Origin: Rickettsiella endosymbiont of Aleochara curtula
GTDB taxonomy: Bacteria; Pseudomonadota; Gammaproteobacteria; Diplorickettsiales; Diplorickettsiaceae
Direction: 5' to 3'
DNA length: 64,000 bases
Assembly: GCF_964030935.1 (NCBI RefSeq)
Contig: NZ_OZ034990.1
Span: forward strand, 558,001 to 622,000
Part shown: piece after piece, positions 18,252-28,881 of the stretch
Numbering within the stretch: the first letter of the stretch is position 1
Layout of the letters: the number at the start of each line of letters is the position of its first letter
Program-made: the position numbers and the translations under genes
Notes under the pieces: model-generated
Told to the model about the DNA's origin: nothing
What the model saw: the letters and a program-made list of their open reading frames with translations, nothing else
The model's database searches: none

Positions 18252-19534
18252 CAAAAACCATCATCATTATTGGATGCCAATGGGGCGACGAAGGCAAAGG
18301 GAAAATTGTTGACTTACTCACGCAGCACGTTAAAGCCGTAGTACGCTTTCAAGGCGGACATAATGCCGGACATACTTTGGTTATCCAAGGTAAAAAAACG
18401 ATTTTACGGTTAATCCCCTCTGGAATTTTACATGCCGGTGTAGAATGTTTAATTGGAAATGGCGTAGTCATTTCGCCAGAAGCCCTGATCAAAGAAATGG
18501 ATGAACTAGAACAGCAAGGTGTCCCAGCACGACTACGCCTGAAGCTCAGCGCGACCTGTCCTATTATTCTACCGACACATATTGCACTCGATGAAGCGCG
18601 CGAAAAGAGTGGAAAAAATGCCATCGGCACCACCAAACGCGGCATAGGACCTGCTTATGAAGATAAAGTAGCGCGACGCGGTTTACGACTGTGTGATTTT
18701 TTTAATCCACAACAATTCGCTGAAAAATTAAAAACCTTATTCCATTATCATAATTTTATACTCGAACATTATTATCAAGCACCCACCATCGACTACGAAA
18801 AAACCTGTGCACATTTATTAACATTAGGCAAACAATTAGTTCCGTTAATTACTGATGTCCCTGCACTTTTAGCAAGCTATCACCAAGAAAAAAAACCTTT
18901 ATTATTTGAAGGAGCGCAAGGTACCTTTTTAGATATCGATCAAGGGACTTATCCCTATGTCACCTCATCGAATACCATAGCCGGCTCTGCAGCCACCGGT
19001 AGCGGTTTAGGCATACGTTGCTTCGATTATGTGTTAGGCGTCAGCAAAGCGTATAGCACACGTGTCGGTAACGGCGTTTTTCCAACGGAGTTACTCGACC
19101 AAGACGGCGATAATCTCAGAGACCGCGGTAACGAATACGGAAGTGTTACTAAACGTCCAAGGCGTTGTGGGTGGTTAGATACGGTGTTATTGCGCCGCGC
19201 AGTCCAATTAAATAGCGTCTCCGCTTTATGTCTAACCAAATTGGATGTATTAGATACGCTGCCAACTATTAAAATTTGCACGGCTTATCGATTAGGAACG
19301 CAGGTATTAACCGACTTACCATTAAATCCAGAAGATCTCAGCCAATGTATCCCGATGTACGAAGAACTCCCTGGTTGGCAAACACCGACGACGCCGATAA
19401 AAGAATTGGCCAAATTACCGAAAAATGCGCAAGCGTATTTGCATCGGATTGAAGAGTTGGTGGGCATACCGATAGTGATTATTTCTACCGGTGCCGACAG
19501 AGATGAAACGATAGTTTTAGAGAAGATTGTTTAA
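18248..19534 (+). CDS. purA: Adenylosuccinate synthetase PurA
   Basis: GTP-dependent first committed step from IMP to AMP, forming adenylosuccinate with aspartate. The 428-residue protein has the N-terminal [19 protein letters not shown]-loop with catalytic Asp, [32 protein letters not shown] and [18 protein letters not shown]. Length matches E. coli (432). It ends the hfq-hfl run, and its stop codon physically overlaps the stop of the convergent ThDP enzyme gene (19531-19534), leaving no room for a separate terminator. Confidence 0.98.
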
Positions 19535-21402
19535 CCACAAATCGAAGTATCTTTCAATTCAGCTTTTACTTCTATTACTTCAGATTTGGGATGCATACCT
19601 ATCAACATATTTTCACGTAGTTCTTCTCTAGGAAGTAATGGAGATAGATCTTCTAAAGGAGGAGAGATGATAGAGCCATCTTTTTGCAAAGCTAAAGATA
19701 ATTTAGGACTAAATAATTGTTCGGGATGTGTAAATACTTCACAAATAACGGGTCCAGATAAATTTTTTATTTTTGGAATTTCCGATTCTACATCCTCCCA
19801 GCTGCGAATAACAAACGATGGTATATTAAATGCTCGCGCTAAAGCAGAAAAGTCCGGGCAGCTGACACCCGATTGTTTATTAGTCCCTGCATACCTCCCA
19901 GAAAATAATGCTTTTTGTGTATGTTTAATCATAAGATAACCATCATTATTAAACACAAATATTTTTATCGGTAAATTGTGATGCGCTATGGTTTGTAATT
20001 CTTGCAAATTAAGCATCATTCCGCCATCACAGTTCAAACAAATTATTTCAGCATTTTTATTGGCAAATGCTGCGCCTACTGCGGCAGGAAGTGCGTAACC
20101 CATTTCACCCAAACCCGTCGAGGTAATTAAACGTTGGCCTTTTTTAATCGATAATATTTGATGCGTGCTTAATAACGCAGTACCCATATCGGTGACTATA
20201 ATCTGGTTATTTGTAAAATAACCAGATAGTTTATGGATAAAAGTATAAGAATTGATATAACCATCACGATCAAAATATTCATGATTTAAAATGGGATATT
20301 TATTTCGATAATTATTACATTGTTCTAACCAAAACTTTGGTTTCTGTTTGGAAATAGAATTTGATTCTCTAATAGCCAACATGGCTTGCATAAAATCTTT
20401 CGCATCTGCGTGTATAGGTATGGATATTTTATCTGCATATTTCTGGGTCTCAGCTAAATCAATATCCACCAAAGCTAATTTTGCTGTTCTAATAAACTCA
20501 TGCAAATCATAGCCAATTTGAGGAATGGCTAAGCGCGTTCCCACTGCCAAAAGAAAATCGCAATTTTGTAAAATAAAATTAGCGGCTCGTTGACCATAGA
20601 CACCCGCTCTGCCAAAAACTAAAGGGTGATCGGATGAAATAATGTCAATACCAGCCCAGGAAATTAACACTGGGCATTGTAAAAAATTGATAAAAGGTTC
20701 AACGAGATCAACTGCATCGGCTAAGCGAATACCATGGCCTAACCAAATAACTGGTCGTTGCGCTTTGGTTAATTCATTCCATACGCAATTTGCTAGCTGA
20801 TACAGCTCAGTTATTTTTAAAGCATTCTCAGAAGAAGGTTTTGATAGTTGTGCTTGCATAGGTTGAGACGATTCAAACTCTTGTAACTGCAAAGCTTGAA
20901 TATTCATTGGAAAATCGACCCAACAAGGTCCAGGCTTAGCATTTAATGCATGATAATAGGCAGTTTCTAAAGCTAATAATGCTTGATTTGGACTTAAAAC
21001 CCTTGTTGCATATTTAGTTACTCTACTCACCATAGCAACAGAGTCGTAACCCTGGACGCCCCAAATTCTTAACGGATTATCTTCCAGAGTATATTTAGAA
21101 TTTTCGTTTCCAGAAATCACTAAGCAAGGAATAGAGTCCATCCAGGCACTCACCACTCCGGTAACTGCATTGGTCGATCCTGCGCCGGTGGTAACAATCG
21201 CAGCGGATAAACCACCACAAATGCGATAGTATGCTTGCGCCGCCATACAAGCGGCTTGTTCATGATGAACGCATATTATCGTTGTAAATCCTTTCAATTT
21301 TATTGAGTCGAATAGCTGCGCATTTCCGGCCCCAATAATACCAAATACATAGCGTATGCCTTTTTCTGCTAAAAAATTGGCGATAAGTTCACTTACTTTC
21401 AT
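19531..21402 (-). CDS. ThDP-dependent acetolactate-synthase-like carboligase (YerE-like candidate)
   Basis: A 623-residue thiamine-diphosphate enzyme with the three-domain layout of acetolactate synthase. The N-terminal PYR domain has the cofactor-activating Glu48 ([11 protein letters not shown]) and [12 protein letters not shown] central domain follows. The PP domain has the ThDP/Mg motif, here NCDGGMML... ending VFNN (the usual GDG has become CDG). A tail of about 55 residues follows ([19 protein letters not shown]). This is probably not branched-chain amino acid synthesis: it is last in a CDP-sugar operon with no regulatory subunit. In Yersinia, YerE transfers a two-carbon unit from pyruvate to the C4 ketone of CDP-3,6-dideoxyhexulose. 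I infer a similar carboligation here. The specific acyl donor is unproven. Confidence 0.8.
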
Positions 21403-21418
21403 AAAAAAACTTCTAAAT

Positions 21419-28062: not shown

Positions 28063-28074
28063 TAATATTACTAA

Positions 28075-28881
28075 TTAGTTACAGATTGAGTTTTTTATTT
28101 TCTGCGAATTAATATCCCAAAGCTTCCAAGGAGCATTTCCAGAAGACCAGATTTCCTCTAAAGTATTCTTATCACGCAATGTATCCATCGGATGCCAGAA
28201 ATCATGATGAAAATAGGCAGACAGCTCACCCTGCTGTGCTAAAGTCTCCAAAGGTTGCTTCTCCCATAACGTATTATCATTTTCAATATAGTTAAGGACT
28301 AGAGGGGATAAAACAAAGAACCCACCATTAATCCAAGCACCATCCCCGTGCGGCTTTTCTTTGAACGCAATGACTTTCTTATCTGAGATATTTAGCGCTC
28401 CAAATCTACCTCCAGCCTGCACCGCTGTTAATGTTGCTAGGGTATTTTGCTGTTTGTGATAGTCAATGAGTACTCTAAGATTAACATCGCCGAGTCCATC
28501 TCCATAAGTAAAACAAAAATCCTCATCATCTAGGTAAGGAGCCACTCTTTTTAGCCGCCCCCCTGTCATGGTTTGCTCCCCTGTTTCCACTAAAGTTATC
28601 CGCCAAGGCTCTGCCTTATTCTGGTGAATTTTAGTCTCATTTTTAGTCATATCAAAAGTAATATCCGAAGTATGTAAATAATAATTCGAAAAATATTCTT
28701 TAATCAGATAGCCTTTATAGCCTAAACAGATAATAAAATCGTAAATCCCATACGCAGAAAATATTTTCATGATGTGCCATATTATAGGTTTACCACCTAT
28801 TTCAATCATGGGTTTAGGTTTTACACTAGTTTCCTCACTTATACGCGTCCCACTACCTCCAGCTAATATAACTGCTTTCAT
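28075..28881 (-). CDS. rfbF: Glucose-1-phosphate cytidylyltransferase
   Basis: Makes CDP-glucose from CTP and glucose-1-phosphate. The 268-residue protein has MKAVILAGGSGTRISEETSV and KPKPMIEIGGKPIIWHIM, the cytidylyltransferase version of the sugar-nucleotidyltransferase signature. It also has CFTYGDGLGDV and FKEKPHGDGAWINGGFFV. The ATG at 28881 is preferred (AAGGAA upstream, canonical N-terminus) over an in-frame start at 28911. First gene of a minus-strand operon that runs to 19531. The AT-rich 28882-29148 stretch before it has no gene and must hold the promoter. Confidence 0.95.
   Translation of the reverse strand: MKAVILAGGSGTRISEETSVKPKPMIEIGGKPIIWHIMKIFSAYGIYDFIICLGYKGYLIKEYFSNYYLHTSDITFDMTKNETKIHQNKAEPWRITLVETGEQTMTGGRLKRVAPYLDDEDFCFTYGDGLGDVNLRVLIDYHKQQNTLATLTAVQAGGRFGALNISDKKVIAFKEKPHGDGAWINGGFFVLSPLVLNYIENDNTLWEKQPLETLAQQGELSAYFHHDFWHPMDTLRDKNTLEEIWSSGNAPWKLWDINSQKIKNSICN

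Follow-up and report, generated by a model that had tools for sequence, protein, structure and literature searches.

Why would a bacterial surface-sugar locus hold an acetaldehyde dehydrogenase and a pyruvate aldolase between its nucleotide-sugar genes and a thiamine diphosphate (ThDP) enzyme? The question is raised by nine open reading frames (ORFs), all on the minus strand from 28911 to 19531, in a 64,000-nucleotide stretch (the window) of the Rickettsiella endosymbiont of Aleochara curtula (contig NZ_OZ034990.1, positions 558,001 to 622,000), which is part of a 1.63 Mb one-contig genome in a small gammaproteobacterial order. Judging from the sequences, we consider it probable that this operon makes a cytidine diphosphate (CDP) sugar of the erwiniose type, with its own aldolase pair supplying the donor and an enzyme like the structurally solved JanthE carrying out the carboligation. 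An earlier note on this DNA had proposed the same donor logic, namely acetyl-CoA to acetaldehyde to 4-hydroxy-2-oxopentanoate, transfer to C4 of the sugar and reduction by a short-chain dehydrogenase/reductase (SDR). That logic is supported by the family and pocket of the carboligase and by the further lines of evidence set out below, from gene neighbourhoods, genome content and aldolase residues.

In the proposed route RfbF would convert glucose-1-phosphate to CDP-glucose, RfbG would convert this to CDP-4-keto-6-deoxyglucose, and the RfbH-like enzyme would then give CDP-4-keto-3,6-dideoxyglucose. In parallel with these sugar steps, the DmpF-like enzyme would form acetaldehyde from acetyl-CoA, and the DmpG-like aldolase, running in the reverse of the degradative direction, would join acetaldehyde to pyruvate, giving 4-hydroxy-2-oxopentanoate, probably in the 4R form. 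The ThDP enzyme would decarboxylate this acid and place the 3-hydroxybutanoyl unit on the sugar's C4 ketone, the SDR would reduce the new branch ketone to yield a C10 CDP-sugar with the erwiniose skeleton, and GtrB, GtrA and a membrane glycosyltransferase would probably attach the sugar to an O-antigen exported by an ATP-binding cassette (ABC) transporter, as a side group. Gene content, families, co-occurrence and residues are read directly from the sequences; from them we infer all of these reactions, the 4R form of the donor, the sequence of late steps and how the sugar is finally linked. The nine genes, in order of transcription, are as follows.

28075..28881, minus strand: rfbF, glucose-1-phosphate cytidylyltransferase (CDP-glucose); TIGR02623, 452.6 bits, cut-off 300
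26968..28062, minus strand: rfbG, CDP-glucose 4,6-dehydratase; TIGR02622, 474 bits, cut-off 278
25752..27023, minus strand: rfbH-like 3-dehydratase of the DegT type, dependent on pyridoxal or pyridoxamine phosphate (PLP/PMP); 311.7 bits, under the RfbH cut-off of 423
25375..25752, minus strand: gtrA, GtrA-type membrane protein (PF04138), probable flippase of a lipid-linked sugar
24389..25336, minus strand: gtrB, GT2 protein (PF00535), putative polyprenyl-phosphate sugar transferase
23348..24376, minus strand: extended SDR of the epimerase type (PF01370), candidate branch-ketone reductase
22446..23351, minus strand: DmpF-like acetylating acetaldehyde dehydrogenase; TIGR03215, 368.3 bits, cut-off 282
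21451..22461, minus strand: DmpG-like 4-hydroxy-2-oxovalerate (pyruvate) aldolase; TIGR03217, 388.5 bits, cut-off 286, DmpG_comm domain present
19531..21402, minus strand: JanthE-type ThDP ketone carboligase with a CDG motif; PDB 8rph, 788.5 bits

All of these ORFs were found in the order, at the coordinates and under the names that the earlier note had given them, with adjacent genes spaced by -56 to +48 bases; at the far end, the stop of the ThDP gene overlaps the end of the convergent purA gene by 4 bases. The rfbF ORF (278 aa) is open from 28911, and its TIGR02623 match begins at residue 11, which corresponds to 28881, the start proposed earlier. Genes for both halves of the product are present. 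On the acceptor side RfbF and RfbG exceed their curated NCBIfam cut-offs, and the RfbH-like protein, which carries a His substitution, scores under its own; on the donor side the dehydrogenase (CGGQA motif at residue 130) and the aldolase are adjacent and both over cut-off. The ThDP enzyme is also under cut-off, as is GtrB for its nearest NCBIfam models, PgfS and ArnC-type.

The carboligase and its gene neighbourhood

Among solved structures the best relative of the ThDP enzyme is 8rph, that is JanthE, at 788.5 bits and 56% identity, and the next is 5ahk at 243.8 bits, which we take to be YerE from Pseudomonas protegens. The earlier note had likened the enzyme to Yersinia YerE; it is indeed a YerE-like ketone carboligase, but it belongs to the JanthE (CDG) branch, with YerE itself distant. 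JanthE is described in the available part of PMC12188165 as a YerE-like enzyme with a CDG motif that couples 4-hydroxy-2-oxovalerate with benzaldehyde and also takes pyruvate in vitro, its physiological substrates being reported there as unidentified. All five JanthE pocket residues, V121, Y268, P293, Y297 and K567, are kept in the window enzyme (the paper's numbering equals the chain index minus one, the sole offset of three tried that matches all five letters). Across 84 rows of the carboligase family Y268, Y297 and K567 are invariant, the V121 position holds V in 63, I in 20 and T in 1, and the P293 position holds P in 68, S in 15 and L in 1; seven comparison rows, representing four more distant enzymes (those of G092, G174 and G320 and the second one of G008), differ at V121, Y268 and P293. 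The CDG cofactor motif is found in the window enzyme and in 83 of the 84 rows, with GDG in one (L032).

Relatives were collected with two patterns drawn from the ThDP alignment, one of them containing CDG, a choice that favours CDG enzymes and is uninformative on GDG carboligases; a scan of 84,980 species genomes yielded 96, and the 80 best were retained. Co-occurrence of the ThDP, DmpF-like and DmpG-like genes, which the earlier note had suggested surveying, proved to be the rule. A dehydrogenase (at least 100 bits) and an aldolase (at least 90 bits) lie at most 3,061 bases from the carboligase in 74 of the 80 loci, a few loci being cut by contig ends, and in 72 of these 74 all three genes share one strand. 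The pair-bearing loci carry the labels of 12 phyla, and all three rfbFGH genes, also called by score threshold, accompany 54 of the 74, compared with three of five pair-less loci. Loci from Massilia, Duganella and Rugamonas have the pair. The pair is incomplete in L070, which has a dehydrogenase up to the contig end, and absent from L081, where the contig is short. A side observation concerns L033 of Pseudomonas marginalis, where a second ThDP enzyme (8203-9882, 30% identity) separates the RfbH-like gene from the JanthE-type carboligase.

For the order 16 genomes were searched, and our genus counts refer to eight other genomes, with one same-species draft excluded. The full set of aldolase, dehydrogenase, ThDP gene and rfbFGH occurs in three of the eight, with the gene order kept or mirrored; one has the ThDP gene without the pair and four have no ThDP match. 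As the set recurs in the genus and the pair adjoins the carboligase in 74 of 80 loci, the nine-gene run is not a chance grouping. A carboligase match at 1e-60 is missing from the excluded draft, G005 (91% complete, 140 contigs); the locus may differ between members of the species or may have been lost in an assembly gap.

A class control covered 369 gammaproteobacterial genomes, with DmpF called by TIGR03215 at 1e-40 and RfbG by TIGR02622 at 1e-60. DmpF was found in 26 genomes, the CDP-glucose dehydratase in 62 and both in five; the two genes lie within about 5 kb of each other in three genomes, all of the window's genus, and on different contigs in G134 and G260. Carboligase relatives (E at most 1e-100) appear in six genomes, the same genus accounting for three and G092, G174 and G320, at 36-40% identity, for the others. 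None of these last three genomes has a DmpF match, G320 being only 58% complete; their carboligase gene is some 3 kb away from rfbG in G092 and G174, and on a different contig in G320. An aldolase adjoins DmpF in each of the 24 loci outside the genus, and no window-like ThDP, SDR or rfb gene was found in the 4 to 17 kb around them. Since DmpF and RfbG are joined only in the window's genus, the aldolase pair in this class sample tracks the JanthE-type enzyme, not rfbFGH clusters generally. In an IQ-TREE tree the 76 sugar-locus dehydrogenases are split from 24 others by a branch with 100/99 support, in a tree that has some long end branches (L117, L118, L084). A plasmid search for the carboligase returned no match at 1e-80, and within its own genome the window enzyme has no second carboligase, two other weak TPP_enzyme_C matches lying elsewhere.

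Aldolase residues and the configuration of the donor

The most informative new point beyond the earlier note is a change in the residues that govern stereochemistry in the aldolase. Our alignment joined the window aldolase to 76 from sugar loci (73 of the 80 named loci and three genus mates), DmpG (1nvm) and 24 aldolases of the class sample from outside the genus; left out were L021, L032, L076, L079 and L081, which have none, and L070 and L093, which are cut by contig ends. At the positions of BphI 87 and 290 the sugar set has His and Phe in 77 of 77 (His83 and Phe285 in the window), whereas the 24 comparison aldolases have Leu (23) or Ile (1) at the first position and Tyr at the second in every case, as in DmpG. 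Arg17, Asp18, His21, His200 and His202 in DmpG numbering, which we take to be the catalytic residues, are kept in every row of both sets. Of the 331 columns that could be compared, 15 have no residue in common between the two sets; six of these are invariant in the sugar set (DmpG numbers 35, 53, 88, 169, 285 and 291); 88 and 291 are the stereochemical positions, for which the column statistic is 2.7e-4, a figure that is partly post hoc as position 290 was known beforehand. In a FastTree tree of the aldolases the 24 others form one side of a branch with support 100.

What configuration would the product require? Erwiniose is 3,6,8-trideoxy-4-C-[(R)-1-hydroxyethyl]-D-gulo-octose, and if the name is taken to describe a 3,6-dideoxyhexose whose C4 carries a four-carbon branch, C7 is R, so that a 4R acid would be needed. 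In the available parts of PMC3962088 and PMC4012138, wild-type BphI makes or uses (4S)-4-hydroxy-2-oxopentanoate and is strictly 4S, with PMC3962226 in agreement. There the single variants Y290F and Y290S take both the 4S and the 4R forms (PMC3962088, PMC4012138), and the double variants L87N/Y290F and L87W/Y290F are switched to 4R (PMC3962088, PMC4012138, PMC3962226). The His/Phe pair and the erwiniose configuration thus probably agree on a 4R donor. On balance we favour, by a modest degree, the broader proposal that the aldolases beside JanthE-type carboligases are a natural, widespread, 4R-selective class II lineage serving the synthesis of branched C10 sugars of the cell surface in roughly a dozen phyla, with (4R)-4-hydroxy-2-oxopentanoate as the natural donor of JanthE. 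In this view a double change at BphI positions 87 and 290, of the sort later engineered, would have arisen in evolution to provide the mirror-image acid.

If correct, this would provide the donor supply route for erwiniose-type sugars, name a likely natural donor for the structurally solved JanthE, and identify a natural 4R-selective pyruvate aldolase, where the literature seen, available in part, has only the engineered BphI variant. It would also give a sequence rule by which a CDG carboligase together with a His/Phe aldolase and DmpF predicts ten-carbon branched sugars in many bacteria. Neither the tie between the JanthE-type enzyme and DmpF-DmpG nor the change of stereochemical residues was found in the literature searched, which lacked papers on the ErwE locus and cluster surveys, where priority is possible; by title, PMC12247030 alone of the papers listed there dealt with the pair in O-antigen or branched-sugar loci, and none listed had natural R-selective relatives of these aldolases as its subject.

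A second aldolase sample was drawn from a search of 390 genomes of another order, in which 124 had a match at 1e-60 and 25 loci were fetched from the best-scoring genomes. Leu/Tyr is present in 24 of these 25 and His/Phe in one (L130), and no window-like ThDP or rfb gene lies in up to 4 kb around any of them. The exception belongs to a cassette (L130/L155, in G445:C1; L155 8101-13165) of DmpF, the His/Phe aldolase, a class I aminotransferase, an inositol-monophosphatase-like gene and a LysE-like exporter, its neighbours having been named from ORFs by inspection; the cassette may serve to make a hydroxylated amino acid out of acetyl-CoA and pyruvate.

Weighing the alternatives

Two readings that would take parts of the run out of sugar synthesis were dropped. 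The earlier note had named, as grounds against its own proposal, a role of the ThDP gene in amino acid synthesis and a catabolic pathway elsewhere in the genome; the complete genome has no match to KARI_C (IlvC), ILVD_EDD_N (IlvD) or FAA_hydrolase, and one DmpF match only. That the gene encodes an acetolactate synthase for branched-chain amino acids we regard as next to impossible: its nearest NCBIfam models are indeed acetolactate synthases, but it reaches 338 bits against a cut-off of 538, stays under cut-off for all 25 families listed of 53 matched, and is 56% identical to a ketone carboligase. Hardly more credible is a degradative meta-cleavage remnant that landed in an O-antigen locus, which would explain why the pair falls in the same families as DmpF and DmpG; against it stand the missing FAA-hydrolase, the separate branch of sugar-associated dehydrogenases and the same arrangement in 12 phyla. 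A yersiniose-type (C8) pathway, with a two-carbon unit moved from pyruvate and the pair serving some other nearby process, is improbable, though less so than either of these. It would fit the activity of JanthE on pyruvate in vitro (PMC12188165, available in part) and the four of 80 loci in which the carboligase lacks the pair in the flanks read. However, the pair is adjacent in 74 of the 80, across 12 phyla, its dehydrogenases form their own group, and the nine gene groups common to most loci (carboligase, the pair, rfbFGH, two SDRs and GtrB) include none that looks like another user of its product; the more distant carboligases near rfbG in G092 and G174 are moreover those whose genomes have no DmpF match.

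The alternative that deserves most attention concerns only the stereochemistry: the aldolase could yield the usual 4S acid, leading to a diastereomer of erwiniose, with His and Phe tuning something else. We consider this unlikely, yet a serious contender, since wild-type BphI is strictly 4S and His lies outside the substitutions tested. On the other side, in the same partly available sources Tyr290Phe alone abolishes 4S control in BphI and the addition of either polar Asn or bulky Trp at Leu87 gives 4R, and both positions are fixed throughout the sugar set. Returning to an erwiniose-type product with a pair-made, probably 4R donor, a number of observations weigh against it. His is not among the engineered residues of BphI at 87 (Asn, Trp). 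The His/Phe aldolase of L130 has a dehydrogenase of its own next to it, and the 19 kb read there contain no window-like sugar genes; as its cassette has an aminotransferase and no sugar genes, His/Phe marks an aldolase lineage that is not confined to sugars; the long-branched L130 falls inside the sugar group in the tree, a placement that is unreliable. The pair of residues is common to one related group and may thus reflect a single event. Many of the 80 loci are metagenome-assembled, and some phylum labels may therefore be wrong. L021, L032, L076 and L079 have no pair despite 4.5 to 10 kb on each side and still keep the pocket residues (Ile for Val121 in two), and the sister species G008 keeps a 70% carboligase without an aldolase pair within its 20 kb; given these five loci, a CDG carboligase is not always the user of a hydroxy-oxo-acid donor from the pair. 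The window SDR, finally, resembles most of its counterparts at only 30-40%, and within the genus relatives at about 28-31% take its place.

The G008 locus (L013, 6090-14309) has two ThDP carboligases, one CDG and one GDG, the latter 41% identical to the window enzyme. In place of the DmpF/DmpG pair it holds an HpcH/HpaI-type aldolase, an AroB-related protein (best model TIGR04425, under cut-off) and a short-chain SDR. Because other genes stand here instead of the aldolase pair, the locus suggests that the donor module of a branched-sugar locus can be exchanged.

The locus and known systems

The earlier note had called the 3-dehydratase a His-type enzyme, and the motif SFYGSH, in which His replaces the PLP lysine, bears this out; its best solved relatives are 3bcx and 3bb8, of the CDP-4-keto-6-deoxyglucose-3-dehydrase type, at 225 bits. 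The [2Fe-2S] cysteine motif of E1 was absent, by motif search, from this protein and from those of four genus mates. One simple motif search found the cysteines in 42 of 60 best RfbH hits, the window, the four genus mates and L032 being among the 18 without, and some of the rest of these may have been missed by the search or be wrong best hits. An E3-type reductase is encoded nearby in two other loci, and the window genome has a single FAD_binding_6 match, elsewhere, in a 251-aa frame. Given the missing motif and that lone match, we do not call the protein E1; it may work like ColD, without an Fe-S centre, to the same product.

Single-linkage clustering of blast hits puts the SDR in one group with SDRs from 53 of the 84 other loci. 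Used as a query it has a hit in 74 of 80 loci, at 38% or more in 14, and the SDR of L049 has hits in 74, at 38% or more in 40, some of which may be other SDRs. The window SDR is therefore a candidate, and the strongest one, for reducing the branch ketone. Flanking the run are the deoxythymidine diphosphate (dTDP) rhamnose genes rmlA, rmlB and rmlD, a ManC-type enzyme and glycosyltransferases, and around it are Wzm/Wzt-like exporter genes with scores under those models' cut-offs; with these surroundings the locus looks like one for an ABC-exported O-antigen. One further feature may bear on the last step.

30587..32383, minus strand: tentative GT-C type membrane glycosyltransferase; PF09594 GT87, E 4e-7

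This protein could tentatively be assigned the transfer of the finished sugar, a link drawn from its position, and, with GtrA and GtrB, the GT87-like protein points to a lipid-linked sugar being transferred to the chain in the periplasm. The neighbour at 29149-30546 has no Pfam match. Elsewhere in the window, the O-antigen locus encodes a protein of 1247 aa that contains two stretches of glycosyltransferase group 1 (46991-50734), and an MNIO-family bufferin maturase BufB, over cut-off, lies at 58469-59305, flanked by a CTP synthase gene and a WecA-type (PF00953) gene.

How does the predicted system compare with known ones? With DmpG-DmpF and BphI-BphJ the window pair shares families, the catalytic Arg, Asp and His residues (77 of 77), the DmpG_comm domain and the gene pairing, but it differs in having His/Phe for Leu/Tyr, in forming a separate group and in its biosynthetic setting. 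Caryophyllose has a longer, more hydroxylated branch. Its YerE-like enzyme MMAR_2332 from Mycobacterium marinum, compared here by description, is said to have an ErwE-like donor preference in the available part of PMC12247030. JanthE of Janthinobacterium sp. HH01 (PDB 8rph, 8rpi, 8rpj) resembles the window enzyme in sequence, CDG motif and all five pocket residues. The yersiniose A pathway has the rfbFGH supply and SDR reduction that are predicted for the window. In Yersinia pseudotuberculosis YerE performs ThDP carboligation at the ketone of the acceptor predicted here, CDP-4-keto-3,6-dideoxyglucose, but moves at most C3 units, from pyruvate or 2-oxobutyrate (PMC12247030, available in part). 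Erwiniose itself, known from Erwinia and Pectobacterium, is a sugar of ten carbons branched at C4 (available parts of PMC8657720 and PMC9912281), and according to the 2025 review PMC12247030 ErwE, which makes it, refuses pyruvate and prefers 4-hydroxy-2-oxobutanoate, -pentanoate or -hexanoate. By description, then, the ErwE system of Pectobacterium atrosepticum is like that predicted for the window in donor class, in its acceptor CDP-4-keto-3,6-dideoxyglucose and in its ten-carbon product (PMC12247030, PMC8657720, both available in part). Since erwiniose has the predicted skeleton and ErwE is reported to accept such donors, both the carboligation reaction type and the ten-carbon product class are already known, and what the earlier note had taken for a novel sugar and enzyme set is better placed beside erwiniose and ErwE.

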